Assembly: GCA_017541205.1 (NCBI GenBank) | Contig: JAFXZO010000020.1 | Location: 1 to 36,061 of the forward strand | Length of the DNA stretch: 36,061 nucleotides | Origin: Clostridia bacterium | GTDB taxonomy: Bacteria; Bacillota; Clostridia; Christensenellales; Aristaeellaceae | Reading direction: 5' to 3' | In this document: positions 10,076 through 35,838 of the stretch, one piece after another | How the letters are laid out: the number at the start of each line of letters is the position of its first letter | How positions within the stretch are numbered: the stretch's first letter is position 1 | Notes under the pieces: generated by a model | Seen by the model: only the letters and a program-made list of their open reading frames with translations | What the model was told of the DNA's origin: nothing | The model's database searches: none | Position numbers and translations under genes: made by a program

Positions 10076-13000
10076 TCACAGAAGCTTGAAGGTGCGGATG
10101 CCGAAAGCGGGCAGATCGAAGGTATACGCGTCGCCCTGGCACAGGGGCGTTACGTTGCTTTCGTCAAAATCGCACGCGCAGATGCGGGCGGCCTTGGGCA
10201 AATGCAGGGTGATATGCGCGCGGCTCCCCCGGTATTCCCACAGCCGGATCACGATGCCCTTCCCGTCTTCCGCCGGCTTCACGGTATCGATCAGGGCATT
10301 CTCTGCCCAAACGCCGTCCGCATCGCAGCCTTTTCCCGGCAGAACAAGCGGCGGGACGTTATACGCGGAAGCATCCAGGGTGACGGGGCTGAGCGCAAAC
10401 GGCATATCGTACGCCTGCAGGGCAAAGGCAAAGCGCTGCCGCCCCCGGTCACAGGTATCGTCCGGCACGCAGGGCGCGTGAAGCAGCGTCAGGGCCAGGC
10501 TGCCCCCTTCGCTGCTCACGCCCCAAATCGCGCGGTTCATCAGGACGATGCCGCGGCGCGCCTCAAACAGCGCGGAATAATGGTGATTGCACACTTCAAA
10601 CCGATCCCGGGCAAAGGAAGTGGAGGGATGCGCCGGGCGCTGCACGTGGCAGAACTGCATTTCATGCAGGGCGTTTTCGCAGTTCAGATTGCTTTCAAAA
10701 CGCACCTTCAGCAGCTTATGGCGCTCCTGCCAGTCGATCTCCGTTTCAAATTCAATGCGGGGGCAGCCGGCCCGGACGGTGATCCTTTCTTCGCAGGGGC
10801 TCTGGCCGATGGTCCGGCGCAGGAGAACGGTGAGCGCATCCGTGTTCTCGCCCTGCAGGATCATTTCCGTCGGCGGGGCCAGCTCCACCGGTTCCTGGCG
10901 GTAGTCGGGGGATAGCTCCCAGGCGTCGTACACCGGTTCCACGTCCCGATAGAGGCGGAAATCATTCATGCGCATGCCGGGCGCCTGCAGCGGCAGTCCG
11001 GAGCGCAGGTCAATCAGATCCCCAAGGGTGCCGTCACCGCGCAGGGTAAAGGATATAACGCCGTTGCTGATCGCAATGTCCTGCCCCTGCGCCGCGGCGC
11101 GCACCCTGCCTGTTTCCCCGCAAAGATCCGCGGCGCGTATCGCCCTGGCCCCCGAGGCGGGCAGGGTCACGATGCCGGATGAGCCGTCGGCCAGGGTGAT
11201 CCTTTCCTGCCGCGGGAAGGGCAGGGTGTTGACGACGGTCACATATCCCGGTTCATCAAAAATGCCATACGCCTCCCGGGCCGCTTCCTCGATCACGCCG
11301 CGCGTCTGCTCCTCCGCCCGGGCCAGGGCCTGCTCCGCTTCCCGGTGCACGTCCCGGATGCCCACGCCCGCGGCGATATCGTGGAACTGATGCAAAAGCA
11401 GGGTGTTCCATGCGGCGGTCAGGTCAGGCTTTTTCGCCGTGCGGATGTCTTCCCCGCATTGGGCCAGCAGGAATTCTCCGTCGTGCAGCGCCTGCTCCAG
11501 CGCGCGCAGCGCGGTTTTGGTTTTCCGCTGAGAGGTGTACGCGCCTCTGTGCCAGGAAAGATATAACTCTCCCCGCCACAGGTTTTCCCGGGCGTTCTCC
11601 CCGGCGGCTTCAAAATGCTCCCGGAGGGTGCTCCATGCCGTACGGGGCAGGCCCTCCAGATCCTTTTCCCGGCGCAGGTATTCCAGCATATCCCGGTCCG
11701 CGCCGCCGCCCCCGTCCCCGAAGCCGAAGGGATACAGCAGGGAATCGATGCGGCGCTGCTGGGAACGGTCCTTTTCCCAGCGCTGATGCAGGCTGTCCGG
11801 GTCGGTGCGGGCGTTGTTTTTGAAAAAGGACAGCGCCTGCACCCGGGAGCCGTCGGCGCCTTCCCAGATAAAATCCTGATAGGGAAAACGCTCGCACTCG
11901 GGATCGGCCCGCAGCAGCTTCTGCGTGGCAAAGTAAGGCACGTCAAAGGCCCGGAGCAATTGGGGCAGGCAGGGCGAAAAGCCGAAGGTATCGGGCTGCC
12001 AGGCCACGCGGGATTCCACGCCCAGGTTATCCCGGAACCATTTCTTGCCCCGCCACAATTGCCGGATCAGGCTTTCGCCGGAGGGGATGTTGGTGTCGCA
12101 TTCCACGTAAAACGCGCCGTCGGCGATCAAACGGCCTTCTTTTACCCGCGCCAGCGCCCGGGCGTATACATCGGGTTCGCTGATCCTGAGCATGTCCAGC
12201 AGGGCAGGCTCGCAGGCCAGGAAACGGTATTCCGGGTATTCCTCCATCAGCGCCAATTGATTGGCATAGGTGCGCGCGGCCTTATGAAAGGTTTCTTCCA
12301 GGGGCCACAGCCAGGCCAGGTCAATGTGGGACTGGCCGATCAGCCGCAGCAGCGGGGCGGTGGAGCCGTTGCGGCATGCCAGCGCCGGACGCAGGATCTC
12401 CCGGCCCCTGCGGTATTCTTCCTCGCGGTCTTTTGCCGGGCGTTCAAGATCCACACCGTGTGTGAACTGTTCCAGCGCTTCCTCAACGGTTTCCCGGCGC
12501 AGGCTCCCTTCCGGCAGTAGATCGTGCAGCCGGGCAAGGGTGTCCACATCCATGAACAGCTGATACGCTTCCTCGTTGAACAGGGCCAGGCAGCTGTCGC
12601 TTACCCTGCATTGGGGCCCGGCGACAGGCGGCAGCGGATCGCGTTCCGGAGGGCAGGGCCCCAAATTCTCCAGCCGAGGGCCGTTGCCGGCATAGCTTTC
12701 GATGAGCAAACGCGCGGCCGCTTGGGCCGGGGCCTGCTGAAACAGCGTCACATAGCGGTGCTCCCGGTCGATGGAGCCGGCTGCCCGGCCGTTCACATAC
12801 ACCAGCTGTTCCCCGCCGACGCCGCTGAGCAGCACCACCCGCTTTCCCTCGCAGGCCGCAGGCAGCGCGATATCGGCGGTGAACCAGGCGTATTCCCGGT
12901 ACGCGCCCCAGGGCGTTCCGGGCGGCATGGGCAGAAAGGAAAGGCCGGCCGCTTCCGCGGGCGTCAGCCGCCCGGAGGCAGTACAGCCGGAAAAGCTGAC

Positions 13001-13084
13001 GGAAGTTAGCGGCGTGAGGATCTGGTTTTTCAATTCTGTCCGCCAGGCGTCCAGACGCTGGCGGAATTTTCGTCTTTCGGGCAT
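10076..13084 (-). CDS. GH38 alpha-mannosidase
   Basis: A 1002-aa glycoside hydrolase family 38 protein, a retaining alpha-mannosidase that needs a divalent metal. A beta-rich N-terminal domain of about 200 residues precedes the catalytic domain. The metal site segment GQSHIDLAWLWPLEET has HIDLAW at 253–258. The nucleophile region is WQPDTFGFSP with the predicted catalytic Asp at about residue 365. The central helical bundle follows (LLHQFHDIAAGVGI), then large C-terminal beta-domains. There is no signal peptide, so it acts in the cytosol on imported material. AAGGAG lies before the ATG. It is the last gene of the inositol operon, 60 bases after iolE with a hairpin between. Linkage preference (1,2, 1,3, 1,6 or mannosyl-inositol) cannot be read from sequence. 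Confidence 0.93.
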   Translation of the reverse strand: MPERRKFRQRLDAWRTELKNQILTPLTSVSFSGCTASGRLTPAEAAGLSFLPMPPGTPWGAYREYAWFTADIALPAACEGKRVVLLSGVGGEQLVYVNGRAAGSIDREHRYVTLFQQAPAQAAARLLIESYAGNGPRLENLGPCPPERDPLPPVAGPQCRVSDSCLALFNEEAYQLFMDVDTLARLHDLLPEGSLRRETVEEALEQFTHGVDLERPAKDREEEYRRGREILRPALACRNGSTAPLLRLIGQSHIDLAWLWPLEETFHKAARTYANQLALMEEYPEYRFLACEPALLDMLRISEPDVYARALARVKEGRLIADGAFYVECDTNIPSGESLIRQLWRGKKWFRDNLGVESRVAWQPDTFGFSPCLPQLLRAFDVPYFATQKLLRADPECERFPYQDFIWEGADGSRVQALSFFKNNARTDPDSLHQRWEKDRSQQRRIDSLLYPFGFGDGGGGADRDMLEYLRREKDLEGLPRTAWSTLREHFEAAGENARENLWRGELYLSWHRGAYTSQRKTKTALRALEQALHDGEFLLAQCGEDIRTAKKPDLTAAWNTLLLHQFHDIAAGVGIRDVHREAEQALARAEEQTRGVIEEAAREAYGIFDEPGYVTVVNTLPFPRQERITLADGSSGIVTLPASGARAIRAADLCGETGRVRAAAQGQDIAISNGVISFTLRGDGTLGDLIDLRSGLPLQAPGMRMNDFRLYRDVEPVYDAWELSPDYRQEPVELAPPTEMILQGENTDALTVLLRRTIGQSPCEERITVRAGCPRIEFETEIDWQERHKLLKVRFESNLNCENALHEMQFCHVQRPAHPSTSFARDRFEVCNHHYSALFEARRGIVLMNRAIWGVSSEGGSLALTLLHAPCVPDDTCDRGRQRFAFALQAYDMPFALSPVTLDASAYNVPPLVLPGKGCDADGVWAENALIDTVKPAEDGKGIVIRLWEYRGSRAHITLHLPKAARICACDFDESNVTPLCQGDAYTFDLPAFGIRTFKLL

Positions 13085-13144: not shown

Positions 13145-14041
13145 TCAAAGCCCGGTTTGCCGGGCGATATACTGGCGGGCCTTCACGGCGTACTCGAAGG
13201 GGTTGGCCTTGGCGGGGTCCTGTTCCGCCTCCACCACCACCCAGCCTTCGTAGCCGGATTCTTCGATGATCCGGAAGATGGGCGCAAAATCCACGTCGCC
13301 GTCCCCGGGCACGGTGAACACGCCATTGCGCACGGCGGTAAGGAAGCTCCAGCCCTCTTTCCGGGCCTGCTCCCGTACGGCCAGGCGCACGTCCTTCAAA
13401 TGAATATGGCGAATGCGGGAAATGTACTTTTTCAGTACGGGCACGGGATCGATGCCCGCGAAGGTGAGATGGCCGCTGTCAAAGAGCAGGAACACCTTTT
13501 CCGGGTCCACCGCGTCCATGAAGCGGTCGATCTCCTCCGCCGTCTGTACGCCGGTGCCCATATGGTGATGGCAGGTGAGCGTCATGCCCTTTTCCTGGGC
13601 CAGCGCGCCCAATTCGTTGTAGCCCCTGGCGATGAGCTTCCATTGCCCGTCTGTCCAAACGGCTTTCCTGTCGCCAAATATATTGACGTCCTTGCCCTGG
13701 ATGGAATCGCCCTGCTCGGACGCGCCGATCACCTTCGCGCCCAGCGCGTGCAGGCGGTCGCGGTGGGCGATGAAGTTTTTGACGGTCACTTCATAGGGTT
13801 CGGAGGTAAACAGGGTGGAAAACCAGGCGTTGCAGATCTGGAGCCCGCGGACGTCCAGCTTGTGCTTGAGCACGGCGGTGTCCTTAGGGTATTTGTTGCC
13901 GATCTCGCTGCCCTTGAAGCCCGCCAGCGCCATTTCGCTGACGCACTGCTCAAAGGTGTTTTCCCTGCCCAGATCCGGCATATCGTCGTTGGTCCAGCCG
14001 ATGGGCGCGATGGCGAGTTTTACTTTGTTGGGGTCAAGCAT
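13145..14041 (-). CDS. iolE: Myo-inosose-2 dehydratase
   Basis: A 298-aa TIM-barrel protein of the sugar phosphate isomerase/AP endonuclease 2 superfamily. It matches IolE, which removes water from 2-keto-myo-inositol to give 3D-3,5/4-trihydroxycyclohexane-1,2-dione. Typical segments are [18 protein letters not shown] at the start, [13 protein letters not shown] in the middle, [12 protein letters not shown], and the metal-site region [10 protein letters not shown] start at ATG 14041, which has AGGAGG about 8 bases upstream; a longer frame begins at a TTG within that ribosome binding site. It follows iolD by 18 bases. Confidence 0.95.
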
Positions 14042-14059
14042 AAAGCATTCCTCCTGCAA

Positions 14060-15913
14060 TCAGAATTTTCTGGTATCCTTTACGTGATCCTGCAGGCTTT
14101 GATACGCCGCCTGCACCCTTGGCTGGGCGGAAACCTCCGCGACGCCCACGCGCCACCAGCTTTCATAGCCGGGGGTCATGGAGCCGGGCAGCACCTTGAT
14201 ATCGTAAAGCACGGGCTTATCCTGGGTCAGCGCGTCGCAAAGCGCGGCCCTGAGTTCTTCTTCCGTATGGATGGAATAGGCTTTCAGGCCGTAGCCCTCC
14301 GCGTTTTTCGCAAAGTCCAGGGGCATGATCGGGCCGTCGAGCTCGCCCGTTTGAGGATTTCGGAAGCGGAACACCGTGCCGAAGGTGTCGTTGCCCTGGC
14401 TGTTCTGCAAATTTTCGATGCAGCCCCAGCCGGAATTATCGAACAGGCAAAAATGTACCCGCAAATGCTCCTGCAGGCAGGTGACCAATTCGGAATGGGC
14501 CATCAGATAGGTGCCGTCGCCGAAGAAGGCGTACACTTCGCCGTCCGGGCAGGCCAGCTTTACGCCCAGCGCGCCGTTGGTTTCGTAGCCCATGTTGGAA
14601 AAGCCGTATTCCATGTGGTAGGTATCCCGATCGCCGGGGCGGAACAGGCGCTGCATATCGCCGGGCAGGCTGCCCGCGCTGCCCACAGCCACGTCGTTTG
14701 CCTTCATGAATTCATTGATGACGCCAAGCGCCCTGGTCTGGGAAAGGCCGCGTTCGTCCTGCTGATGATACCATGCGTCCACAAGGGCGTTCCATTCATT
14801 CCGCGCCTGCTTCACCTTTTCGGCGTTCGGATAGCGGTAATCCCGGAGCGCTTCCGTCAGCGCGGCAAGGCCCTCCCTGGCGTCGCAGAGGATGGGCTCG
14901 CCGTCCATCTTCACCGCGTCAAAGGGGCATATATTGACGGAAACGACCTTCGCGTTTTCCCTGAACAGCCATTTGGAGCTGGTGGTGAAATCGGTCAGCC
15001 TCGTGCCCACGGCGATGATGGCGTCCGCGTCCCTTGCGATCACATTGGCGGCTTTTCCGCCGGTGACGCCGATACCGCCAAGGTTCAGCGCATGATCCCA
15101 GGGCAGCACGCCTTTGCCCGCCTGGGTTTCGGAGAAGGGAATGCCGGTTTGTTCACAGAACGCTTTCAGCGCGTCGCCCGCGAAGGAATAGCGCACGCCG
15201 CCGCCGCAGATCACGAGCGGGTTCTTTGCGCTGCGGATGATTTCCGCCGCCCGCTCCGTCTGCGCCTTGGTGGGCATGCGGCGGTCCATGTGCCATACCC
15301 GCCTGCGCAGGAAGGAAACCGGGTAATCGTACGCTTCGCCTTCCACGTCCTGGGGCATGGCCAGGCACACAGCGCCGGTATCGGCGGGATCGGTGAGCAC
15401 GCGCAGGGCGTGGATCGCGGCGGTCATGAGCTGCTCGGGCCGCTCGATGCGGTCAAAGTAATGGCAGACGCCCCGGAAAGCGTCCGTCACCGTCTGTCCG
15501 AAGGAGGAAAAGAATTCCGCCTGCTGCAATACGGGATCGGGCTGGCGGCAGGCAAAGGTATCGCCGGGCAGCAGCAAAAGCGGGATGCGGTTGGCCGTGG
15601 CGCAGCCCGCGGCGGTGACCATGTTCATGGCGCCGGGGCCGATGGAGGAAACGCAGGGAATGATTTCCAGCCGGTTCTTCTGTTTGGCGAACGCCATCGC
15701 GGCCAGGGCCATGTTCTGCTCGTTCTTGCCCTGCAGGAAGCGGATGCCGTGGCCGCCCTGTGAAAGCGCCTGGCCCACGCCCACCACGCAGCCGTGGCCG
15801 AACACGCCGAACAGATGGTTCACAAACTTATGCTCCCGGCCGTCCAGTTCCACATACTGCTGATCCAGGAACCGCACCAGCGCCTGCGCCATGGTCAGGC
15901 GAATGGTCTCCAT
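14060..15913 (-). CDS. iolD: Trihydroxycyclohexane-1,2-dione hydrolase (ThDP enzyme)
   Basis: A 617-aa thiamine diphosphate enzyme of the acetolactate-synthase fold. It matches IolD, which opens the ring of 3D-(3,5/4)-trihydroxycyclohexane-1,2-dione to give 5-deoxy-glucuronate. The N-terminal domain has the ThDP glutamate region FLQGKNEQNMALAA and a GPGAMNMVTAA segment. The C-terminal ThDP/Mg motif begins FFGDGTYLMAHSEL and ends LFDNSGWG. ATG 15913 (METIRLTMAQALVRF) is preceded by AAGGAGG; upstream in-frame codons lack a site. It sits between iolB (88-base gap carrying a short repeat) and iolE. Confidence 0.96.
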   Translation of the reverse strand: METIRLTMAQALVRFLDQQYVELDGREHKFVNHLFGVFGHGCVVGVGQALSQGGHGIRFLQGKNEQNMALAAMAFAKQKNRLEIIPCVSSIGPGAMNMVTAAGCATANRIPLLLLPGDTFACRQPDPVLQQAEFFSSFGQTVTDAFRGVCHYFDRIERPEQLMTAAIHALRVLTDPADTGAVCLAMPQDVEGEAYDYPVSFLRRRVWHMDRRMPTKAQTERAAEIIRSAKNPLVICGGGVRYSFAGDALKAFCEQTGIPFSETQAGKGVLPWDHALNLGGIGVTGGKAANVIARDADAIIAVGTRLTDFTTSSKWLFRENAKVVSVNICPFDAVKMDGEPILCDAREGLAALTEALRDYRYPNAEKVKQARNEWNALVDAWYHQQDERGLSQTRALGVINEFMKANDVAVGSAGSLPGDMQRLFRPGDRDTYHMEYGFSNMGYETNGALGVKLACPDGEVYAFFGDGTYLMAHSELVTCLQEHLRVHFCLFDNSGWGCIENLQNSQGNDTFGTVFRFRNPQTGELDGPIMPLDFAKNAEGYGLKAYSIHTEEELRAALCDALTQDKPVLYDIKVLPGSMTPGYESWWRVGVAEVSAQPRVQAAYQSLQDHVKDTRKF

Positions 15914-15936
15914 AGGCAAAACCTCCTTATTGTGGG

Positions 15937-15973
15937 TTCCCCCAGACCCCCATCCGAGAAAGCTGTATAAGGG
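15937..15973. repeat. 37-bp intergenic repeat, copy 1
   Basis: This 37-base segment between iolB and iolD matches 17899–17935 at 30 of 37 positions without gaps, with the core CCGAGAAAGC identical. Both copies lie in non-coding gaps of the iol operon. Confidence 0.55.
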
Positions 15974-16001
15974 AACTGTTTGATTCACGCTCTGGTGTCC
16001 C

Positions 16002-16814
16002 TTATTTGTTATCCCCGAAATACACGCTGTCAGGCTCCATCACCCAAAGATGTTCTTTCAGGAACACGGGGCACTCCGGCTGCTTGTAGGGCTGTCCCGG
16101 CAGATGCCGGATGGCCCACAGATACCAAAGCGCGTAGCCGGGGGCGGTGCAGTGGGGATGGGTGAGGCCGGGCGCGATGAACACGGTGTCGTTGTTCTGC
16201 ACCTTCACCACCTCGTCGCCCAGCTCGCCGTAGCCGAAGCCGTTTTCCGGGTTGGTTTTGTAGTAATAGATTTCAGGCTGGGGATGATGGTGGGGCGGGT
16301 AGCTGCTCCATTTGCCGGGGAAGCCGATCACTTCGCCCAGCACCAAATTCGCGTCCGGGGCGTTGGTGTGATCGAAGATCGTGCGCACGATGCGCGTGCT
16401 GGTTTCCCTCATCAATCCCGCGCCGCGGAATTCGTCCGGCGTGTCGGCGGGCAGGTAGAGCTTCGCGCCGAACAGCTTTTCATTGTCCGTGCGCAGGATA
16501 TTGATTTCCGCCTCGTCGGACAGGCAGGTGATCTTCACGGGATGCTTTTGATCGGCGTGCAGGGCGGTCGGCGGCGCGTCGAAGCAGTTATCGCGGTTTT
16601 CGATGTGCGTTTTTCCGTCCCATTCCAGCTTTACTTCGCCGTACACCAGCAGCGCGGCCTTTTCCAGCTTCGCGCTTTCTTCCCATACGTCGCCCTTCCT
16701 CATCCGGTACACGCCGAAATCCATGAGCATATCGGCGTGGGGGCCGTCCGTGCGCGAAAGCCATTTGAGGCCGAAGGGATGCGCGCCGCGGGCCTTGATG
16801 ATGCTGTCGTTCAT
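16002..16814 (-). CDS. iolB: 5-deoxy-glucuronate isomerase
   Basis: A 270-aa double cupin that matches IolB, which isomerises 5-deoxy-D-glucuronate to 2-deoxy-5-keto-D-gluconate. The metal-binding cupin motif is YPPHHHPQPEIYYYK, with the partner histidine in APGLTHPHCTAPGY. The segment ANLVLGEVIGFPGKWSSYPP is typical of the family. The ATG comes one base after the iolG stop codon, and the ribosome binding site (GAGGCG) lies inside the end of iolG, so the two are translationally coupled. Confidence 0.96.
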   Translation of the reverse strand: MNDSIIKARGAHPFGLKWLSRTDGPHADMLMDFGVYRMRKGDVWEESAKLEKAALLVYGEVKLEWDGKTHIENRDNCFDAPPTALHADQKHPVKITCLSDEAEINILRTDNEKLFGAKLYLPADTPDEFRGAGLMRETSTRIVRTIFDHTNAPDANLVLGEVIGFPGKWSSYPPHHHPQPEIYYYKTNPENGFGYGELGDEVVKVQNNDTVFIAPGLTHPHCTAPGYALWYLWAIRHLPGQPYKQPECPVFLKEHLWVMEPDSVYFGDNK

Positions 16815-16815: not shown

Positions 16816-17835
16816 TTACGCCTCGCAGATCTCGCTGATTTTCACGGGCCGGTGCTCGTCCAGCGATTTTTTCGCGGCCTTGGCCAGCACCACGCTCATG
16901 AGCCCCGCGTGAATGCCCACGGGCACGTCCCTGTCCTCCCGGATGGCGGCGATGAACTGCCGCATTTCCTCGGTGAAGGACTGCATGTAGCGCTCTAAGA
17001 AGAAGAACTGGGGCTTGTCGCCCACCACGCCCGCGGCGGTGGACACCTTCACGGTGCTGTCCCCGTCGTTTTCGTCCGCTGCCATGCCTAAGGACCCGAA
17101 CACCTCCACCCGCTGGTCGTAGCCGTAGGCGGCCCGGCGGCTGTTGTCAATGACGCCGAGCGCCCCGTTTTCAAAGGTCAGCGTCACGATGGCGGTGTCC
17201 ACGTCGCCCGCTTCGCCGATGCGCTTGTCCACCAGGCTCGTGCCCATGGCGTAAACCTCCGTAACGTCCGAGCCGGCCAGGAACATGGCCATATCAAAGT
17301 CATGGATCATCATGTCGATGTACAGCCCGCCGGAGGAGGCCGCGTATTCGGGGGACGGCGGCTCGGGATCGCGGGAGGTGATCTTGATGATCTCGATATT
17401 GCCGAGCGTTCCGTTCTGCGCCAGCTGCTGCACGCGGCGGTGGTTGTGATCGAAGCGGCGGTTGAAGCCGATCTGCAGCTTCTTGCCCGTTTCCTCAGCG
17501 GTTTTCGCCACTTCTTTGATCTGCTCGATGGAGGTGTGCACCGGCTTTTCGCAGAACACGTGCTTGCCCGCTTTCAGGGCGGCGATGGTGATTTCCGCGT
17601 GGGTGGGGGTGGGCGAACAGACCAGCACCGCGTCGATCGCGGGATCGTTGATGATGTCCAGATAGTTGCCGGAATACTTGGGGATGCCGAAGCGCTCCGC
17701 CAGCTTTTTCGCGCTTTCTTCGATCACGTCCGTCACCATCACGACGTCCGCCTCGGGGATGTGATAGGTGATGGATTCCGCGTGCACGTTGCCGATGCGC
17801 CCCGCGCCGACGATGCCGATGTTGAGCTTACGCAA
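16816..17835 (-). CDS. iolG: Inositol 2-dehydrogenase, Gfo/Idh/MocA family
   Basis: A 339-aa NAD(P)-dependent dehydrogenase that oxidises myo-inositol (or a close cyclitol) to 2-keto-myo-inositol, the first step of the pathway. The Rossmann loop is IGIVGAGRIGNVHA at the start, the catalytic lysine is in HVFCEKPVHTS, and the substrate part carries GGLYIDMMIHDFDMA with the usual D-x-x-x-H-D pattern. I choose TTG 17835 as start because AAGGAG lies 9 bases upstream; a TTG three codons earlier lies too close to that site. Position next to iolB supports inositol as substrate, though family members also act on scyllo- or D-chiro-inositol. A 21-bp palindrome lies just upstream. Confidence 0.9.
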   Translation of the reverse strand: MRKLNIGIVGAGRIGNVHAESITYHIPEADVVMVTDVIEESAKKLAERFGIPKYSGNYLDIINDPAIDAVLVCSPTPTHAEITIAALKAGKHVFCEKPVHTSIEQIKEVAKTAEETGKKLQIGFNRRFDHNHRRVQQLAQNGTLGNIEIIKITSRDPEPPSPEYAASSGGLYIDMMIHDFDMAMFLAGSDVTEVYAMGTSLVDKRIGEAGDVDTAIVTLTFENGALGVIDNSRRAAYGYDQRVEVFGSLGMAADENDGDSTVKVSTAAGVVGDKPQFFFLERYMQSFTEEMRQFIAAIREDRDVPVGIHAGLMSVVLAKAAKKSLDEHRPVKISEICEA

Positions 17836-17862
17836 GAGAAACAACTCCTTTTTTATTTTTTT

Positions 17863-22682: not shown

Positions 22683-22712
22683 GGAGCTTCCCTCCTTATG
22701 ATCCTGTTCTCT

Positions 22713-23933: not shown

Positions 23934-23940
23934 GTAAGTT

Positions 23941-23957
23941 TTTGTAATTTTTTTGAA
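23941..23957. promoter_or_regulatory. Second candidate IolR-like site
   Basis: Two TTTTTG units have their G at 23946 and 23957, 11 bases apart, echoing the spacing in the iolR intergenic region. They lie 10 bases upstream of the next –35. The match is poorer than at the main site. Confidence 0.3.
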
Positions 23958-27758: not shown

Positions 27759-27824
27759 GCGCGGGAAACCCCGACGGCCTTTGTCCCGCTGCCGTGATAC
27801 ATGAACGCAAGGAGGCGTGCGCAT

Positions 27825-28847
27825 ATGGGTCAGTATATCCTTAAGCGCGTCCTGACATTCATTCCGATCCTGCTGATCATGTCCCTGGTGATTTTCTTCA
27901 TCATCCAGCTGCCGCCCGGCGACTACCTCACCTCGTACGTTGCGGGCCTGAAGGCGGAAGGACAGATCGTGGACGAGAGCGAACTGGACAGTCTGAAGGA
28001 GCGCTATGGCCTGGATCAGCCTTGGTTCACCCAGTACTTCAAGTGGATGTGGAACATCATCACCCGCTTTGACTTTGGCTACTCCTTCAAGTTTGAGGCG
28101 CCTGTGTGGTCCACCATTGCCTCCGTGCTGCCGATGACGATCGTGGTGTCGCTGGTCACGATGCTGTTCAACTACCTGGTCGGTATACCGATCGGCATTT
28201 ACAGCGCGGTGCACCAGTATTCCATCGGGGATTACTGCTTCACCTTCATCGGCTTTATCGGCATGGCCATCCCGAATTTCCTCTTCGCGATCCTGCTGAT
28301 GTACGGCACGTATATATGGACGGGCACCGCCTTCATCGGGCTGTATACCAGCGAAGTGCTGGTCGGCCTGCAGCAGGGCACCATGCAATGGTGGGAGGTG
28401 CTGGGCCGGGGTGATTTCTGGGGCCGCATGGCGATCCCGATCATCGTGATCGGCACCTCCGGCACCTGCGGCACGCTGCGTTCCATGCGCGCCCAGATGC
28501 TGGACGAATTGGGGCGGAATTACGTGCTGTGCGCCCGGGCCAAGGGCGTTTCCGAGCGCCGCATCGTATACAAATACTGCCTGCGGGCGGCCCTGAACCC
28601 CACCGTTTCCGGCCTGAGCGGCGTGCTTTCCCATATTTTCAACGGCTCCACCATTTCCGCCATCGTGATGAACCTGCAGCTGGTCGGGCCCATGCTGTAT
28701 GAGGCGCTGAAGGCGCAGGACATGTACCTGGCGGGCACCATCCTGCTGGTGATGGGCTTTTTGATCGTGCTGGGCACGCTGCTGTCGGATATCCTGCTGG
28801 CCTGCCTGGATCCGCGCATCCGCTTTTCCGGAAGGAGGGCTGAATAA
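27825..28847 (+). CDS. ABC importer permease, DppB/OppB type
   Basis: A 340-aa inner-membrane permease of the peptide/oligosaccharide ABC class. It starts MGQYILKRVLTFIPILLIM, the classical DppB opening. The ATPase-docking EAA loop is ELGRNYVLCARAKGVSERRI. About six membrane helices are visible, with a soluble stretch of about 60 residues after the first. I take ATG 27825, which has AAGGAGG at the right distance, instead of the ATG at 27801 that overlaps that site. Its stop codon is 2 bases before the second permease start. Confidence 0.93.
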   Translation: MGQYILKRVLTFIPILLIMSLVIFFIIQLPPGDYLTSYVAGLKAEGQIVDESELDSLKERYGLDQPWFTQYFKWMWNIITRFDFGYSFKFEAPVWSTIASVLPMTIVVSLVTMLFNYLVGIPIGIYSAVHQYSIGDYCFTFIGFIGMAIPNFLFAILLMYGTYIWTGTAFIGLYTSEVLVGLQQGTMQWWEVLGRGDFWGRMAIPIIVIGTSGTCGTLRSMRAQMLDELGRNYVLCARAKGVSERRIVYKYCLRAALNPTVSGLSGVLSHIFNGSTISAIVMNLQLVGPMLYEALKAQDMYLAGTILLVMGFLIVLGTLLSDILLACLDPRIRFSGRRAE

Positions 28848-28849: not shown

Positions 28850-30067
28850 ATGTCCGAGCATGAAAATCAGGCCGTTCTTGATAAAAAAGCGCTTCGCGCG
28901 CAGAAGAAGGCGGAGAAGGCCAGAAAAAAAGAAGAAAAATACTATCTGGCCTCCCAATGGCAGCTCATGGCCAGGAAGCTGGGGCGACATAAGCTGGCCC
29001 GGATCTCGCTGGTCATCCTGGGCTTTCTCTATTTCGTCGCCCTGTTCGGGGATTTTCTGGCCCCCTACAGCCTGACCGATTACGACGCCAACTCCAAAGA
29101 CCTGCCGCCCTCCGCCATCCATTTCTCCCACGACGGGAAATACGTCGGCCCCTTCATTTACCGGACGGAAAAGCAGACGGTCAAAATGAGCGTGGCGGAA
29201 AAAAGCGCCGCCCAGCGCGCGGCCAAGGAACGCGGGGAACAGTACGTGCCGCCCACCAACATCGTAACGGACGAAACCACGCCGCTTCGCATCCGCTGGT
29301 TCGTTCACGGCGCTTCGTACAAGATCCTGGGCATCTTTGAATCGGATCTGCATTTATTCGGGGTGGAGGGCAGCGCAAAGGTCTTCCTCTTCGGCGCGGA
29401 CAGCATGGGGAGGGATCTGTTCAGCCGCATCATCCTGGGAAGCCAGGTTTCCCTGACCATTCCCTTCGCAGGCACGATGATCAGCTTCGTGCTTGGCCTG
29501 CTGATCGGCTCCGTCTCCGGCTACTTTGGCGGCTGGATCGATAACGTGATCCAGCGCATCATCGAGGTGCTCAACTCCCTGCCCTCCCTGCCCCTGTGGA
29601 TGGCCCTTTCCGCCGCCATCCCCGCCGGTATCCCGCCGGTGCAGATGTATCTGCTTATCACCGTCATCCTGTCCCTGATCAGCTGGACGGGCCTCGCGCG
29701 CGTGGTGCGCGGCAAGTTCATGTCCCTTAAGAACGAGGATTATGTGATGGCCGCCAAGCTTGCCGGGGTCAGCGATATGAAGATCATCCTCAAGCACATG
29801 GTGCCCGGCTTTATGAGCTACCTGATCGTAAACCTCACGCTTGGCATCCCCTCCATGATCATCGGCGAAACCAGCATGAGCTTCCTGGGGCTTGGCATCC
29901 AGGCGCCGGCCACCAGCTGGGGCGTGCTGCTCAAGGAAGCCCAGGACGTATCCAGCATCGCCATGCATCCCTGGTGCCTGATCCCGCTGTTCTTCGTTGT
30001 GCTCACGGTGCTTGCCTTCAATTTCCTGGGCGACGGCATGCGTGACGCCGCGGATCCCTATAAGTAA
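28850..30067 (+). CDS. ABC importer permease, DppC/OppC type
   Basis: A 405-aa permease, longer than the usual about 300. The extra length comes from a very basic N-terminal tail (KKALRAQKKAEKARKKEEK) and a large loop of about 110 residues between the first and second membrane helices. The core has the DppC features FGADSMGRDLFSRIILGSQV (transition into the transmembrane domain), the EAA loop NEDYVMAAKLAGVSDMKII, and GETSMSFLGLGIQAPATSWG near the end. AAGGAGG lies within the end of the previous gene, so translation is coupled. Confidence 0.93.
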   Translation: MSEHENQAVLDKKALRAQKKAEKARKKEEKYYLASQWQLMARKLGRHKLARISLVILGFLYFVALFGDFLAPYSLTDYDANSKDLPPSAIHFSHDGKYVGPFIYRTEKQTVKMSVAEKSAAQRAAKERGEQYVPPTNIVTDETTPLRIRWFVHGASYKILGIFESDLHLFGVEGSAKVFLFGADSMGRDLFSRIILGSQVSLTIPFAGTMISFVLGLLIGSVSGYFGGWIDNVIQRIIEVLNSLPSLPLWMALSAAIPAGIPPVQMYLLITVILSLISWTGLARVVRGKFMSLKNEDYVMAAKLAGVSDMKIILKHMVPGFMSYLIVNLTLGIPSMIIGETSMSFLGLGIQAPATSWGVLLKEAQDVSSIAMHPWCLIPLFFVVLTVLAFNFLGDGMRDAADPYK

Positions 30068-30080
30068 GGAGGTGCCTAAA

Positions 30081-31097
30081 ATGAGCGAGCAGCAAGAACC
30101 CATCATCCAGGTCCGGGATTTGCATGTCAGCATCAAAATGGACGAGGGGACGCTGACCCCGGTCCGGGGCGTCTCCTTTGATATCCGCCCGGGGGAAACG
30201 CTGGGCCTGGTCGGGGAATCCGGCTGCGGCAAGAGCCTGACCAGCAAAGCCATCATGGGCATCAACGAAAAAAAGTGCCATTCCGACGGCGAGATCCTGT
30301 TCCGCGGGGACGGCGGCCAGGTGATCGACCTGCTGAAGCTGGATCCCCGGGGCAAGCCCATCCGCGCCATCCGCGGCAAGCAGATCTCGATGATTTTCCA
30401 GGAGCCCATGGTGGCCTTTTCGCCCATGTACACCATCGGCAACCAGATCAACGAATGCACCATGCTGCACATCACCAGGGACAAGAAGGAATCCAAGGCC
30501 ATCACCCTGGAAATGATGAAAAAGGTCGGCATCGCCAACGCGGAAAAACGCTATGACCAATACCCGCATGAGTTTTCCGGCGGCATGCTGCAGCGGGCGC
30601 TGATCGCCATGGCCCTGGTGTGCAAGCCCCGGCTGCTGATCGCCGACGAGCCGACCACCGCCCTGGACGTGACCATCCAGGCCCAGATCCTGGAGCTGAT
30701 GCAGCAATTGCAGAAGGAGCTGGGCATGGCCATCCTGTTTATCACCCACGATCTGGGAACGGTGGCCAAGATGTGCGACCGGGTCGCGGTGATGTACCTG
30801 GGCCGCATCGTGGAAACGGGCACCGCCCGGGAAATCTACAAGTATCCGCGGCATCCGTATACCCGCGGCCTGATGGGCAGCGTGCACAAGATCGGCAGCC
30901 GCAAGCTGGACCGGCTGTATTCCATCGAGGGCACCGTGCCCCTGGCGCTGAACCTCAAACCCGGCTGCGGGTTTTATGACCGGTGCGACGCGCGGGTGGA
31001 AGGAACCTGCGATCAGGCCGAGCCTGACCTGTACTGCCTGGAGGGCACCCACTGCGCTGCCTGCGTGCATTGCCGAAAGGAGGAAAAAGCGAAATGA
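30081..31097 (+). CDS. ABC importer ATPase, DppD/OppD type
   Basis: A 338-aa ATPase of the DppD branch. The Walker A is GESGCGKS at about 45–52, the Q-loop is [13 protein letters not shown], the signature is [12 protein letters not shown], and the Walker B is [15 protein letters not shown]-terminal oligopeptide-transporter extension is rich in cysteine ([15 protein letters not shown] and CVHCRKEEK), as often in this subfamily, where it may hold an Fe–S cluster. ATG 30081 with TAAGGAGG upstream is chosen over longer frames overlapping the permease gene. It overlaps the second ATPase gene by 4 bases (ATGA). Confidence 0.94.
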
Positions 31098-32182
31098 GCG
31101 GGAAAGAAACGGCCGCCGCCAACGAATCCAAAAAGCCGTCCCCGGGAGAAAAGGACGTGATCCTGCGGGTCAGCCACATTTCCAAACGCTTTACCTCCAA
31201 GGGCGTGTGCGTCCGCGCGGTGACGGACGTATCCTTCGATGTGAAAAAAGGCGAAACCATCGGCATCGTGGGCGAATCCGGCTGCGGAAAAACCACCCTG
31301 GGCCGCTGCGTCGTGCGGGCGATCGAAGCCAGCGAAGGCGACGTGCTGTACACCGCCCGCGACGGCCGGACCTATGATTTCCTGCGCCTGAACAAGGCGG
31401 ACATGAAAAAGGTGCGCAAGGATATCCAGATGATCTTTCAGGATCCCTATTCTTCGCTGGATCCCCGAATGACGGTCATTGATATCATCGCGGAGCCCCT
31501 TCGGGCCAACTACCCCAAAATGCCCAAGGCAGAGGTGGAAAAAAAGGTCATTGAAATCGCAAAAAAGGTGGGGCTCAATACCACCTATCTCAAGCGTTAT
31601 CCCCATGCCTTTTCCGGCGGCCAGCGCCAGCGCATCGGCACGGCCCGGGCTTTGATCCTCAACCCGCAGGTGATCGTATGCGATGAGGCCGTCAGCGCCC
31701 TGGACGTGTCCATCCAGGCCCAGATCATCAATCTGCTCAAAGACCTGCAGAAAGAGCTGGAGCTGACCTACATTTTCATCAGCCACGATCTGAGCGTGGT
31801 GGAGCATATCAGCGACAAGGTGGGGGTCATGTACCTGGGACGGCTGGTGGAGTTCGGCGAAACGGAACAGCTGTTTTCCCGCCCCCGGCACCCCTACACG
31901 GAAGCGCTGCTTTCCGCTGTGCCTGTGGCCGATCCCGATATCAGGATCGAGCGCATCCCCCTCCAGGGCGAGATCCCCAACCCCGCCAATCCTCCCTCCG
32001 GCTGCTATTTCCATGAGCGCTGCCGCTACTGCCAGGAAAAATGCGCCCGGGAGGTGCCCCAGCTCCAGGAGGTGGACGGCCGCATGGTGGCCTGCCATTT
32101 CGCGGAGGAACTGCGCCTGCGCGGCTTCGATTACGATCAGGACGCGATAGATAAGAAGAAGACAGCTGCTGAAAAGGAGTAA
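31094..32182 (+). CDS. ABC importer ATPase, DppF/OppF type
   Basis: A 362-aa ATPase, the partner of the preceding one. The Walker A is GESGCGKTT, the Q-loop is MIFQDPYSSLDPR, the signature is AFSGGQRQRIG, and the Walker B reads VIVCDEAVSALDVS with DEA in place of the usual DEP, as commonly seen in OppF-type subunits. A C-terminal cysteine cluster (CYFHERCRYCQEKC) is present. The start overlaps the stop of the DppD-type gene as ATGA, with AAGGAGG about 10 bases upstream. The next gene follows after 6 bases. Confidence 0.94.
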   Translation: MSGKETAAANESKKPSPGEKDVILRVSHISKRFTSKGVCVRAVTDVSFDVKKGETIGIVGESGCGKTTLGRCVVRAIEASEGDVLYTARDGRTYDFLRLNKADMKKVRKDIQMIFQDPYSSLDPRMTVIDIIAEPLRANYPKMPKAEVEKKVIEIAKKVGLNTTYLKRYPHAFSGGQRQRIGTARALILNPQVIVCDEAVSALDVSIQAQIINLLKDLQKELELTYIFISHDLSVVEHISDKVGVMYLGRLVEFGETEQLFSRPRHPYTEALLSAVPVADPDIRIERIPLQGEIPNPANPPSGCYFHERCRYCQEKCAREVPQLQEVDGRMVACHFAEELRLRGFDYDQDAIDKKKTAAEKE

Positions 32183-32188: not shown

Positions 32189-33118
32189 ATGTCCTTTGCC
32201 AAAAAGGATCTGGCCCTGTCCACCATGTGGAACTACCGGAAGGCTGCTTCCGGCGAGGAGCTGATGGATCAGCTGCTGGCGCTGGGGTTCCGGAAAACGG
32301 AGCTCAACTACCGGGTGAAGCCGGAATGGCTGCCCGCCATTCAGCGGTATATCGGGCAGGGCCTCATACAGGCGGTCAGCGTGCATAACGTATTTCCGGA
32401 AGTAGGGGACGAGCGCTTCGGCACCGATTCCGTGCTGCTGGGATACGAAGACGAGACCCTTCGCGCCCAGTCGGTGGAATGGAGCAAACGCTCCATCGAC
32501 TGGGCCTGCCGTCTGGGCGCCCGGGCCGTGGTGTTTCACCCGACGGAGGTGCCCCTCCCGCCGGCGGAATATGATATCCCGTTGAAAAAACTCATCGCCG
32601 CGCATCAGACGGACGGCGAACAATACCGCGCGCTCCGGGAGGAGATGGTCCTTAGACGCGCGTCTGCGCCGTATATCAGCCGGATGCTCAAAAGCGTGGA
32701 AGAACTGTGCGATTATGTCGTCCGGGATCATCTGCCTGTGAAGCTGGGCATGGAAAACCGGGCCATGTGCCATCAGGTGCCCGTTTTCAGCGAGTTTGAG
32801 ATCATCGCGGAGCGGTTCGAGGGCAGCCCGGCCGGGATCTGGCTGGATACGGGCCATGCCATTATGATGATCGAAATGGGCCTGCAGCAGCTGCCCCTGA
32901 GCGGCCGGGTGAAACGCAATATTGTGGGCATGCATATCCACGACGCCGCGAACGGATTGGACCATTATGCGCCCTGCACCCTGCCCGGCAACGTGCTGGA
33001 GGGCTTCCGGGAATACATCCAGGCATCGCCCATCCGGGTGCTGGAGCTGTCCGGACGCCTTTCCGCGGAAGAAATTCTGACAGGGACGGACCGGTTCGTG
33101 GCGCAGTACGGCGGATAA
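32189..33118 (+). CDS. Sugar isomerase/epimerase-like TIM-barrel protein
   Basis: A 309-aa protein that looks like a xylose-isomerase-type TIM barrel (AP endonuclease 2 superfamily), the group that includes IolE, IolI and various ketose epimerases. Supporting stretches are LLALGFRKTELNYR, GARAVVFHPTEVPLP, KLGMENRAMCHQ (a glutamate at the expected metal site), GIWLDTGHAIMM, and NIVGMHIHDAANGLDHYAP with the HIHD metal ligands. No signal peptide. AAAAGGAG precedes the ATG, 6 bases after the ATPase stop. The substrate is unknown. In this context it could isomerise a keto-inositol (IolI-like) or epimerise a hexose or uronate. Confidence 0.8.
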   Translation: MSFAKKDLALSTMWNYRKAASGEELMDQLLALGFRKTELNYRVKPEWLPAIQRYIGQGLIQAVSVHNVFPEVGDERFGTDSVLLGYEDETLRAQSVEWSKRSIDWACRLGARAVVFHPTEVPLPPAEYDIPLKKLIAAHQTDGEQYRALREEMVLRRASAPYISRMLKSVEELCDYVVRDHLPVKLGMENRAMCHQVPVFSEFEIIAERFEGSPAGIWLDTGHAIMMIEMGLQQLPLSGRVKRNIVGMHIHDAANGLDHYAPCTLPGNVLEGFREYIQASPIRVLELSGRLSAEEILTGTDRFVAQYGG

Positions 33119-33160: not shown

Positions 33161-34081
33161 ATGAAGATACTGGGCATCGATTTGGGCGGTTCCAGGGTCA
33201 AATTGGCCATTGTGGACGCGGGCCGCGTGCAGGAGATGACTATTTTTCCCATCAGCCACGATATCCCCATGCGGGCGGTGCTGGAGACCGTTGAAGCGCA
33301 GGCCCGCAGGATGGCCGGCATTTCCGGCTGCAGGGGGATCGGCTTTGCGTATCCCGGCATCGTGGATATGCAAAACCGGCGGGTGCTGTGCATCAACGAT
33401 AAATACACGGACGCGGCGGAGACGGATTTTGCCCGCTGGGCGAAGGAGCGGTTCGGGCTGGAGCTGATCCTCATCAACGACGCGGCGGCGGCCCTCTGCG
33501 GGGAAATGGCCTACGGCGCGGGCCGGGGCGCGGACAGCGCGGCGCTGCTCATGGTGGGTACCGGCGTGGGCACGGCGGTTTGGTCTGAGGGACGGCTGCT
33601 GACCGGAAAGCACGGGAGCATGGGAATCCTGGGCGGCCACATCGCCATCGCCCATGAACAGCCGCGCAGATGCACCTGCGGCAACGCGGGCTGTCTGGAG
33701 GCGTATGCGGGCACCTGGGCGCTGCCCGGCCTTGCCCGCGAGCATCCGGGCTTTGAACGCAGCGTCCTGCAAAAAGCGGAGCGCATCGATTACCGCACGC
33801 TGGCGGAAGGCGTTGAGGCGGGCGACGCGGTGTGCAAAGACGTGTTCCATAGCGTCTGCCGCGCGCTGTGCGTGGGCGCGGCCAATCTGGTGCACGCTTA
33901 TGATCCCGAGCTGCTGATCTTAAGCGGCGGCGCTTCCCGCATCGGCGCGCTGCGGACGGCCATCCAGGAGCATGTGGATCGGTACGCCTGGACGCCCGGG
34001 GGCCGCGTGCGCGTCACAGCCGCGGAAAACCCGGAAGCCTCCGTTGCGCTGGGCCTTTCCAGTCTGTTTGAAAAGAGGTAA
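33161..34081 (+). CDS. ROK-family sugar kinase
   Basis: A 306-aa ROK kinase without the DNA-binding domain of ROK repressors, so an enzyme. The ATP loop is ILGIDLGGSRVKLAIVD at the start, a second phosphate loop is LMVGTGVGTAVW, and the ROK zinc motif is CTCGNAGCLEAY from about residue 171 with the upstream histidine in GGHIAI. The probable substrate is mannose, fructose or glucose. Lying 2 bases before a mannose-6-phosphate isomerase gene, mannokinase (or fructokinase) is the best guess. GCGGAG lies about 10 bases before ATG 33161. Confidence 0.9.
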   Translation: MKILGIDLGGSRVKLAIVDAGRVQEMTIFPISHDIPMRAVLETVEAQARRMAGISGCRGIGFAYPGIVDMQNRRVLCINDKYTDAAETDFARWAKERFGLELILINDAAAALCGEMAYGAGRGADSAALLMVGTGVGTAVWSEGRLLTGKHGSMGILGGHIAIAHEQPRRCTCGNAGCLEAYAGTWALPGLAREHPGFERSVLQKAERIDYRTLAEGVEAGDAVCKDVFHSVCRALCVGAANLVHAYDPELLILSGGASRIGALRTAIQEHVDRYAWTPGGRVRVTAAENPEASVALGLSSLFEKR

Positions 34082-34083
34082 GC

Positions 34084-35838
34084 ATGCGCTTTCAGAGCAA
34101 TTATGATTTATATCCCCAGATTCATGTGGCGGCGGACGAAAAGGCCTATGCCCTCGCGGGCTGGGAAGCGATCGGCCGGGAGCTTCGGGAAGCGGTCCGG
34201 GCGCGGGACGCGGACAAAACGGTGCTGTGCGTGGATTGCTATCACGGCGTATGGGAAAAAGAGATCCTGGCGAAGCTTAGAGAGCTTCTCCGGCCCGACG
34301 CGGTATTTTGCGCGTCGGACGCGGCAATCAGCAGGGAAAAAGCGCTGGATATGCTGCGCTTCCATATTACGGACGACCGGGTGTTCGGGGTGCTGTCCCA
34401 TCATCGTTTGGCGGATTTTTTCGAGCCCGAAAAGGCGGACGCCCTGCGCGCGGCAGCGGCCCACGCGCGGGGCCTCGTGCTGGTGTTCGGCGTAGGCGCG
34501 GCGTACCTGTGCCGGCCGGACGTTCTCGTGTACGCGGACATGGCCCGCTGGGAAATCCAATTGCGGTTCCGTTCCGGCCGCCTCGCCAATTGGCTGGATG
34601 ACAATTACGGGGAAGATTTTCTGCGGAAATACAAGCGCGCTTTTTTTATTGACTGGCGGGTTTTGGACAGGCACAAGCGGGATCTGTTTGCCCGCATGGA
34701 TTATGTGCTGGACGCCAACGACGAGGCCGAGCCCAGGCTGATGACGGGCGAAGCCTTCCGCCGCGGATTGGATACGGCGGCGGCGCGGCCCTTCCGGGTC
34801 AAGCCGTATTTCGATCCGGGCGTTTGGGGCGGCCAATGGATGAAAGAAAAATTCGGCCTGCCGCAGGAAACGAAGAATTACGCCTGGAGCTTCGACTGCG
34901 TTCCGGAAGAAAACAGCCTGCTGCTGGAGGTCGGCGGCGTCGTGCTGGAGATCCCGGCCATTGATCTGGTGTTTTATCACCCCCGCGAGCTGTTGGGGGA
35001 TAAAACCCACGCCCGCTTCGGCGCGGAATTTCCCATCCGGTTCGACCTGCTGGATACCATGGGAGGCGGAAACCTGAGCCTTCAGGTGCATCCCCTGACC
35101 GAGTACATCCAGGATCGGTTCGGCATGCACTATACCCAGGACGAGAGCTATTATCTGCTGGACGCAGGGGAAAACACCTGCGTCTATTTGGGGTGCAAAA
35201 ACGGCGCGCGGCGGGAGGACCTGCATCGCGCCCTGGCGGAAAGCCAAACCACGGGCCGGTTTGACGCGGAAAAGTTCGTCAACGCCCTCCCCGCGCACAA
35301 GCACGATCATTTTCTGATCCCCGGCGGCACCGTCCATTGCTCCGGGAAGGACTGCATGGTGCTGGAAATCAGCGCCACGCCCTACATCTTTACCTTCAAG
35401 CTGTGGGATTGGGGGCGGCTGGGCCTGGACGGCAGGCCGCGGCCCATCCATCTGGAGCATGGGATGCGCAATATCCAGTTTGACAGGGATACCGACTGGG
35501 TGAAGAGGAATCTGGTCAACCGCGTGGAGACGCTTTCGCAGGACGCCCACGTGACGGAGGAGCGCACCGGCCTGCACGAACGGGAGTTCATCGAAACGCG
35601 GCGGCACTGGTTTGACGCGCCGGTTCAGCATGACACCCGGGACAATCTGAACGTGCTGAATCTGGTGGAGGGGCGGGAAGCCGTGGTGGAGAGCCCGACA
35701 GGCGCGTTTGCTCCCTTCCCCGTGCATTACGCGGAAACCTTCATCGTGCCCGCGGCGGTCGGGGCGTATACGATCCGGCCCCTCGCATACGGCGAAAGCG
35801 GCAAAATGGCCACCGTCAAAGCGTTCGTGCGCGTTTGA
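34084..35838 (+). CDS. manA: Two-domain class I mannose-6-phosphate isomerase
   Basis: A 584-aa protein. The C-terminal part (about 245–584) is a class I mannose-6-phosphate isomerase, converting mannose-6-phosphate to fructose-6-phosphate. It opens PYFDPGVWGGQWMKEKFG and has the zinc site LSLQVHPL (QVHP at 334–337) and HDHFLIPGGTVHCSG. The N-terminal part (about 1–240) contains KTVLCVDCYHGVWEKEI and VFGVLSHHRLADFFEPEKA. It recalls a nucleoside-kinase-like fold but has no GxxxxGK P-loop, so it is probably not an active kinase. This long form is known to me from Bacteroides and gut Clostridia. GAGGTAAGC precedes the ATG. It is the last gene of the + strand locus. Confidence 0.9.
   Translation: MRFQSNYDLYPQIHVAADEKAYALAGWEAIGRELREAVRARDADKTVLCVDCYHGVWEKEILAKLRELLRPDAVFCASDAAISREKALDMLRFHITDDRVFGVLSHHRLADFFEPEKADALRAAAAHARGLVLVFGVGAAYLCRPDVLVYADMARWEIQLRFRSGRLANWLDDNYGEDFLRKYKRAFFIDWRVLDRHKRDLFARMDYVLDANDEAEPRLMTGEAFRRGLDTAAARPFRVKPYFDPGVWGGQWMKEKFGLPQETKNYAWSFDCVPEENSLLLEVGGVVLEIPAIDLVFYHPRELLGDKTHARFGAEFPIRFDLLDTMGGGNLSLQVHPLTEYIQDRFGMHYTQDESYYLLDAGENTCVYLGCKNGARREDLHRALAESQTTGRFDAEKFVNALPAHKHDHFLIPGGTVHCSGKDCMVLEISATPYIFTFKLWDWGRLGLDGRPRPIHLEHGMRNIQFDRDTDWVKRNLVNRVETLSQDAHVTEERTGLHEREFIETRRHWFDAPVQHDTRDNLNVLNLVEGREAVVESPTGAFAPFPVHYAETFIVPAAVGAYTIRPLAYGESGKMATVKAFVRV

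Follow-up and report, generated by a model that had tools for sequence, protein, structure and literature searches.

An inositol operon divergent to a glycan operon in a Clostridia genome: a candidate system for the use of glycosyl-inositols

We analysed a stretch of 36,061 nucleotides (bases 1-36061 of contig JAFXZO010000020.1, assembly GCA_017541205.1; hereafter the window) from a Clostridia bacterium of the Aristaeellaceae, whose metagenome-assembled genome (MAG) measures 3.0 Mb in 121 contigs and is 84.9% complete. In this window the gene of a DeoR-family regulator sits between two halves: an operon for the catabolism of inositol (iol) and a divergent operon for a glycan. We concluded, with a probability of about 0.6, that they form a two-operon system which would import a small inositol glycan containing uronic acid and mannose and burn its parts, inositol included, by the mechanism described below. 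In its general form, that of a system for the utilisation of glycosyl-inositols, the reading is probable and is well supported by comparison between genomes. The leading and best-fitting substrate is the head group of the glycosyl inositol phosphoryl ceramides (GIPCs) of plants, to which we give about even odds; this locus of a gut or rumen bacterium probably feeds on inositol-bearing heads of plant glycolipids. What is new is a variant of the glycan utilisation locus which includes an inositol pathway and a lyase-like family, the iol operon and glycan loci with ATP-binding cassette (ABC) importers being known. The original prediction for this DNA had named iol, mannosidase, uronyl hydrolase, importer and mannose genes, all of which are present; it had overlooked the DeoR regulator and a gene for a 550-residue lyase-like protein, which we regard as the hub of the system.

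Linkage and composition of the two halves

The linkage was followed in two surveys, which overlap and hence are not independent. The first covered 200 genomes of the family, window included, a match to IolD being called at E 1e-100. IolD is found in 43/200 of them, the lyase-like gene likewise in 43/200, and both in 23, where 9.2 are expected (hypergeometric 9e-8). Eleven of the 23, counting the window, carry both genes on one contig within 20 kb, against about 0.3 expected from random placement in 3 Mb (binomial 3e-15, a value which treats genomes as independent, which they are not). The GH38 gene, the seven iol genes and those for DeoR, GH105 and the lyase-like protein stand together on one contig in five genomes (the window, G203, G168, G213 and G092; four genus codes), four of which also have the genes of the family-5 ABC importer (not seen in G092). 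The full set minus GH38 is together in G001, and the set is split over two contigs in G216. The search for the same gene combination elsewhere, which the original prediction had proposed, thus yielded the full set in five genomes, window included, and other gene orders or importers in further lineages.

The second survey started from the lyase-like gene: 84,980 species genomes were scanned, 460 places were confirmed, and the best 80 of the 460 were kept and read with flanks of at most 10 kb, many loci ending at a contig edge. With iol genes called at 40% identity or more, at least two of them lie in the flanks of 22 of the 80 loci, and one further locus has IolC. Sixteen of the 22 we assign to Christensenellales-like MAGs; the others are L155 (SZUA-610), L169 (Lachnospiraceae), L178 (Oscillospiraceae) and L176, L177 and L179 (Butyrivibrio). 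GH105 or GH38 is present in 17 of the 22 and both in six, while L118, L119, L142, L143 and L145 have neither. The layouts differ. One strand of L131 carries GH105, DeoR, a recurrent family described below (c17), GH38, the lyase-like gene, an ABC importer of SBP_bac_1 type and IolJ-C-A-G-B-D, its other strand carrying a HAD-family gene and a second recurrent family (c22). In Butyrivibrio L176 and L177, one strand reads GH105, ROK, the lyase-like gene, IolC, an open reading frame (ORF), IolD, IolB, IolE, IolG, another ORF and a family-5 solute-binding protein (SBP5); the extra ORFs of L176 encode a helix-turn-helix protein (after IolC) and an iron alcohol dehydrogenase (before SBP5). On a tree of 62 sequences, the label "iol-linked" changes 11 times (shuffled mean 14.4; one label is false, that of L152, whose look-alike enzymes are 27-43% identical). 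This shows that the linkage has been gained or lost repeatedly. The idea that iol was inserted just once, in the window, where the block sits between GH38 and GH105, was not borne out, as the linkage recurs in the genomes of the family.

We also read IolD loci of the family away from the lyase-like gene (16 more, plus G006 and G003), bringing the coverage to 30 of the 43 once the 11 linked genomes and G216 are counted. Seven of these 18 loci have a neighbour related to the glycan set: GH38 lies beside IolE in G114, G140 and G161, and HAD, c17, c22 or GH28 genes are near iol in that group or in G107, G134, G157 and G231. The other 11 are without any such neighbour (G103, G179, G126, G146, G047, G045, G135, G184, G167, G006 and G003), and six of them, G146, G047, G045, G135, G184 and G167, have a more distant type of iol.

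The iol half of the window is on the minus strand, and all seven of the enzymes listed beforehand were located. Five exceed the curated NCBIfam cut-offs: IolC (5-dehydro-2-deoxygluconokinase, 20028-21041; TIGR04382, 379 bits, cut-off 300), IolA (methylmalonate-semialdehyde dehydrogenase, 18479-19990; MMSDH model TIGR01722, 571 bits, cut-off 448.5), IolG (inositol 2-dehydrogenase, 16816-17844; TIGR04380, 460.6 bits, cut-off 355), IolD (3D-(3,5/4)-trihydroxycyclohexane-1,2-dione (THcHDO) hydrolase, 14060-15988; TIGR04377, 866.6 bits, cut-off 715) and IolE (inosose dehydratase, 13145-14059; TIGR04379, 398.7 bits, cut-off 290). Two are assigned by Pfam family and score under the NCBIfam cut-offs, namely a divergent IolB-like 5-deoxyglucuronate isomerase (16002-16814; PF04962, 169 bits; TIGR04378, 95.5 bits, cut-off 205) and an IolJ-like class II aldolase (21066-21890; PF01116, 287 bits; best NCBIfam model 361 bits, cut-off 396). 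Seven pathway enzymes and a DeoR-family regulator are what the window shares with a bacterial iol operon under an IolR-type regulator. It differs in that the iol genes are arranged, and probably regulated, jointly with glycan genes, and in the transporter: the known type of inositol permease is missing, as had been noticed, since PF00083 (major facilitator superfamily (MFS) sugar porters, the IolT type) has 0 matches in the whole MAG, other transporter types lying outside this search. An acidic ORF of 136 residues lies between IolG and IolA (17975-18385), and a 52% identical ORF has the same place in L189 (G103). The iol operon of G203 encloses a gene of metallo-beta-lactamase fold (L064:16519-17289), which has a relative in G001.

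The last gene of the iol strand is indeed a GH38 alpha-mannosidase (10076-13084, minus strand, 1002 residues), with four Pfam GH38 domains (N, mid, C and C2) above cut-off. A protein search with it in 80 genomes, its own included, gave matches in 37 of the 80. In nine genomes (the window, G203, G168, G213, G092, G216, G114, G140 and G161), GH38 comes after IolE, either immediately or across a single gene or gap. Its closest orthologues (71%) belong to G010 and G020. There, the lyase-like gene, SBP5 and the ABC genes (in G020 GH105 as well) run divergently from GH38, and no iol genes are present. Hence GH38 belongs to the glycan set, and the notion of a gene of the iol operon only was rejected: GH38 belongs to both. 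A conserved separation of iol from GH38 and GH105 in relatives, which the original prediction had held would speak against it, was not seen, though these two closest relatives are without iol.

The glycan half is on the plus strand. It begins with a GH105 (GH105/88) gene for a putative unsaturated uronyl hydrolase (22758-23933, likely ATG at 22842; PF07470, Glyco_hydro_88, 304 bits), followed by the lyase-like gene (24056-25708) and by the importer: SBP5 (25775-27679; PF00496, 190.6 bits), two ABC permeases (27801-28847, PF00528 and PF19300; 28850-30067, PF00528 and PF12911) and two ABC ATPases (29997-31097 and 31070-32182, each with PF00005 and PF08352). Then come a putative AP_endonuc_2-type TIM-barrel isomerase or epimerase (32189-33118; PF01261, 44 bits; present in 11/80 loci), a ROK sugar kinase, possibly a mannokinase (33161-34081; PF00480, 149 bits), and a distant ManA-like protein (34084-35838). 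The other genes listed in the original prediction stand; ManA does so only distantly: its similarity to B. subtilis ManA (1qwr, E 1.4e-13) is confined to residues 235-460, and Pfam and NCBIfam gave no match for it at thresholds of 1e-5 and 1e-3. Its N-terminal part of 234 residues is outside the match to 1qwr.

By eye, SBP5 has a signal peptide whereas GH38, GH105 and the lyase-like protein have none, so that cleavage would take place inside the cell. An importer, glycosidases free of signal peptides and a local regulator are also the features of Gram-positive glycan utilisation loci; here, in contrast, the same locus contains a cyclitol pathway, and its lyase-like protein is outside the families named in Pfam or NCBIfam. 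The best structure matches of GH105 are 3qwt (E 4.7e-91), 3pmm and 4xuv, with YteR-like structures weaker. It is of one family with YteR-type GH105 enzymes (unsaturated rhamnogalacturonyl hydrolases), its QIWDDTLFM aligning with QIWLDGLYM of the YteR-like 4wu0, but resembles 3qwt, 3pmm and the BglB subfamily of NCBIfam more closely. YteR-type enzymes act on an alpha-1,2-linked unsaturated uronyl residue, and by analogy a 4,5-unsaturated uronyl residue alpha-1,2-linked to inositol would resemble their substrate. A KduI gene, above cut-off and beside a short-chain dehydrogenase, is found elsewhere in the genome.

The lyase-like protein and the predicted operators

The lyase-like gene is a real one, as it is 86% identical in two relatives. 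Neither Pfam nor NCBIfam has a match for the window protein, and in Pfam none appears even at E 0.1, polysaccharide lyase family 8 (PL8) domains included. Its AlphaFold model, built with 62 sequences (pLDDT 93.9, pTM 0.90), has a helical region, residues 3-304, beside a beta-rich one. When the PDB was searched with Foldseek, the first 45 of the 50 listed matches were uronate lyases, GH127 appearing first at rank 46. They include chondroitin AC lyase (2.2e-10), xanthan lyase (rank three, 3.9e-10), hyaluronate lyase and heparinase III, together with PL33, PL17 alginate lyase and PL12 types; the lyases among these 50 have E values of 2e-10 to 3e-6, query-normalised TM scores of 0.43-0.60 and 8-13% identity. 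As modelled, the protein has the fold of uronate lyases (toroid plus beta-sandwich). What it shares with the PL8 chondroitin AC, hyaluronate and xanthan lyases, and with those of PL33, PL17 and PL12, is this fold; it differs from them in its length of 550 residues, the 8-13% identity, the lack of a Pfam match and the lack, by eye, of a signal peptide.

Support from sequence is thin: Lyase_8_N is touched weakly by 15 of the 62 aligned members (best 3.3e-6), the window protein not among them, and a profile search of the PDB reached chondroitinase AC at E 0.07. N153, H154 and Y202, candidates for a catalytic Asn/His/Tyr set, are invariant in the 62 sequences and lie at helix starts in the model; their spacing, compared without superposition, resembles that of H202 and Y258 of Alg17c (named from PDB titles). 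Aligning the family by hhalign with one heparinase II/III protein and with family c22 gave no convincing relation. PF16889 and PF08124 were found in 1 and 0 of 81 genomes of the order, a count which is uninformative since the control genomes were silent for both. Among the named families of Pfam and NCBIfam we found no place for the lyase-like family, a statement relative to these two databases and not to CAZy.

The DeoR gene (21903-22754, minus strand; PF00455 and PF08220; judged by eye against G001, it probably starts near 22682) adjoins, in relatives, iol and GH105 or the lyase-like gene. We built an operator matrix from the intergenic stretches between DeoR and GH105 of eight loci, the sites being picked by eye. 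The predicted operator of the divergent promoter (22743-22765, plus strand) is a TTTTGA-type repeat with 11-bp spacing, whose leave-one-out score of 25.0 is the highest of the eight (13.9 to 25.0); by eye, it lies between TTTACA...TACAAT towards iol and TTGAAT...TATAAT towards GH105. Held-out loci scored 27.2 (L077), 26.9 (L107) and 25.0 (L083), and the maxima of Markov shuffles (20 per locus, 11 loci) ran from 16.0 to 23.6.

A weaker predicted operator precedes the lyase-like gene of the window (23926-23948, plus strand, score 17.4), as high a score occurring in 1 of 300 shuffles that keep the local composition. In 30 of the fetched loci we scanned the 420 bp that surround the start codon region of the lyase-like gene: the score is at least 16 in 17/30 and at least 20 in 7/30, and 14/30 beat their local-composition shuffles (at most 3/300 as high), where 0.3 would be expected. 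In several of these cases the scanned stretch coincides with the divergent DeoR promoter. The shuffles replace a control with random windows (0/933 reach 16), which was too easy because random windows consist largely of coding sequence, while promoters are rich in A and T.

The site also occurs at iol loci with no lyase-like gene nearby. It stands before IolJ in G107 (22.7), G006 (19.7), G003 (19.3) and, with a weak score, in G134 (16.2); in G157 (25.0), G231 (24.1) and G179 (22.9) it precedes DeoR. Counter-cases are G103 (14.0) and G126 (16.2, placed elsewhere). The separate lyase-like locus of G107 has a site scoring 25.0, and no DeoR gene is in the stretch read at its IolJ site. No other locus points as clearly to a single regulon working in trans, with DeoR as the putative binding protein of the sites.

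Substrate, mechanism and alternative readings

PMC12498067 describes GIPCs as a major class of plant sphingolipids and gives the head of the cabbage GIPC as D-Man-alpha(1->4)-D-GlcA-alpha(1->2)-myo-inositol (GlcA, glucuronic acid), with O-4 of GlcA bearing a hexose, hexosamine or N-acetylhexosamine according to the plant; in the same paper, the free trisaccharide is found in cultured rose cells and a plant GIPC phospholipase D (GIPC-PLD) releases the head.

A mannosidase, a lyase, an unsaturated-uronyl hydrolase and an inositol pathway would match such a head, Man-alpha1,4-GlcA-alpha1,2-inositol, as there is one candidate enzyme for each of its bonds: the alpha-mannosyl bond, that at O-4 of GlcA, that between GlcA and inositol, and the inositol ring. 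The presence of the lyase-like gene makes a uronate-bearing inositol glycan chemically coherent. In the mechanism we propose, the family-5 ABC importer would take up the head group, and the lyase-like protein, in the cytoplasm, would beta-eliminate the sugar on O-4 of glucuronate. GH105 would then remove the unsaturated uronyl residue and so free myo-inositol, to be oxidised by IolG-E-D-B-C-J-A, and KduI would handle the uronyl product. GH38 would take off alpha-mannose, which ROK and the ManA-like protein would convert to fructose-6-phosphate, and the DeoR/IolR-type regulator would act on both operons. Computation establishes the gene content, its conservation and linkage, a recurring operator-like motif and the lyase fold; the activities, the ligand of SBP5 and binding by the regulator we infer. 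The import and dismantling of a mannose- and uronate-bearing inositol glycan, which the original prediction had put forward, gain support from the repeated linkage and from the operator-like site recurring at both halves.

Three strains of Butyrivibrio score negative for growth on free myo-inositol in Table 2 of PMC5716241; other Butyrivibrio carry iol genes inside the lyase-like locus. Uptake of inositol in glycosidic form would account for this combination.

Several observations weigh against the glycosyl-inositol reading. The closest relatives, G010 and G020 (81% and 91% complete), lack iol at the locus and any IolD match genome-wide, and the stretches read contain neither a DeoR gene nor an operator; of the 43 genomes that carry the lyase-like gene, 20 likewise give no match to IolD. 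The iol block of the window looks mosaic: IolE, IolD, IolB and IolG are closest to the unlinked G006 (86-94%) and G003, and the best matches among the loci read for IolC, IolJ and DeoR are in G179 (86, 74 and 77%), so that the coupling of glycan and iol genes in this genome may have been rebuilt. The score of 17.4 before the lyase-like gene falls within the null range of the whole window (maximum 18.0). No site beyond shuffles is seen in 16/30 lyase-like loci, among them L025, L026 and L081, which have no DeoR or iol, and L070 and L073, where iol adjoins the lyase-like gene; outside the family, L169 and L178 have none. ROK (12/80 lyase-like loci) and ManA (1/80) are weakly conserved. By NCBIfam name, GH105 would be a beta-galactosidase, BglB (425 bits, cut-off 420). 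On a simple Man-GlcA-inositol, the lyase and GH38 would compete for the mannose; since elimination requires a leaving group on O-4, the lyase would be blocked once GH38 had removed the mannose, and one of the two enzymes may therefore have a different linkage or a longer head as its target. Finally, among the window genes scanned (bases 1-3024 being outside the scan), no phospholipase freeing the head group was recognised. The plant GIPC-PLD could release the head from ceramide (PMC12498067), and PMC11496612 describes inositol phosphate glycans whose release it ascribes, as the most likely source, to a phospholipase C of a fungus.

Three other readings have to be considered. The window could hold a system for uronate-mannose oligosaccharides (glucuronomannan, a xanthan side chain) merely lying beside an iol operon. 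Xanthan lyase, which cuts the mannosyl-(1->4)-GlcA bond, ranks third in Foldseek, and GH38 with the lyase-like gene, mostly with GH105 too, is found without nearby iol in G010, G020, G227, L157, L160, L163 and several others; the recurrence of the iol linkage across several families and layouts, and the site common to iol loci and lyase-like loci, in trans in G107, nevertheless make this quite unlikely. Alternatively, the glycan is free of inositol and both halves are co-regulated because inositol signals plant debris. IolR of B. subtilis answers to an intermediate of the iol pathway and the present regulator could do the same; some genomes, moreover, keep the glycan half without iol. This too we consider unlikely, given that the lyase-like gene shares one strand with iol genes in L131 and in Butyrivibrio L176 and L177, and that the window MAG has no MFS sugar porter.

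The substrate, thirdly, could be another inositol glycan, such as the head of a fungal mannosyl-inositol lipid or of a phosphatidylinositol mannoside (PIM) of mycobacterial type. Both GH38 and iol would be put to use, and GH38 follows IolE in the nine genomes given above; these heads are not known to carry uronic acid, though, which would leave the lyase-like gene and GH105 idle, and we think this very improbable. Thus, from the list of substrates in the original prediction, the plant GIPC fits best, and the fungal and actinobacterial mannosyl-inositols are disfavoured.

A wider form of the glycosyl-inositol reading is that of a widespread bacterial pathway dedicated to GIPC heads, with the founding members of a new polysaccharide-lyase family eliminating the O-4 sugar from GlcA-inositol, an unsaturated-uronyl hydrolase (HAD-fused in some relatives) and one DeoR regulon over glycan and inositol genes. 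This we hold tentatively, at slightly less than even odds. Herbivores and people eat GIPCs with leaves, and the open-access literature searched, judged by title or abstract start, gave no report of bacterial use of GIPC heads and no account of their use by gut microbes. The locus is now named, its lyase-like family can be assayed and carriers (Butyrivibrio, Lacrimispora) are in culture, so that the question can be tested directly.

Accessory families and neighbouring genes

A short HAD-family protein, putatively a phosphatase, whose first motif looks unusual, is found in 21 of the 80 lyase-like loci. A HAD-family domain is fused to GH105 in L157:4958-6580, L169:12708-14411 and L182:2943-4628, where it is perhaps for inositol-phosphate glycans. 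In the window, the HAD gene at 9420-10022 was set aside as a member of the system, being 28.7% identical over 101 residues to the recurrent one.

Family c17 (about 240 residues, e.g. L131:6020-6781) is present in 26/80 lyase-like loci and absent from the window. One member gave no Pfam family at E 1e-4, and 1 of 20 members touches NPP1 (E 0.075). NPP1-type proteins bind GIPC heads. Family c22 (about 570 residues; L079:9341-11056 and relatives) stands beside iol or DeoR in several genomes, and the one member scanned has no Pfam or NCBIfam match.

To the left of the locus (3025-10022), the window has ordinary genes: YitT, GGDEF, PrfA, PrmC, DUF1385 and the HAD protein, together with an esterase resembling the pectin acetylesterase PaeX, below cut-off.

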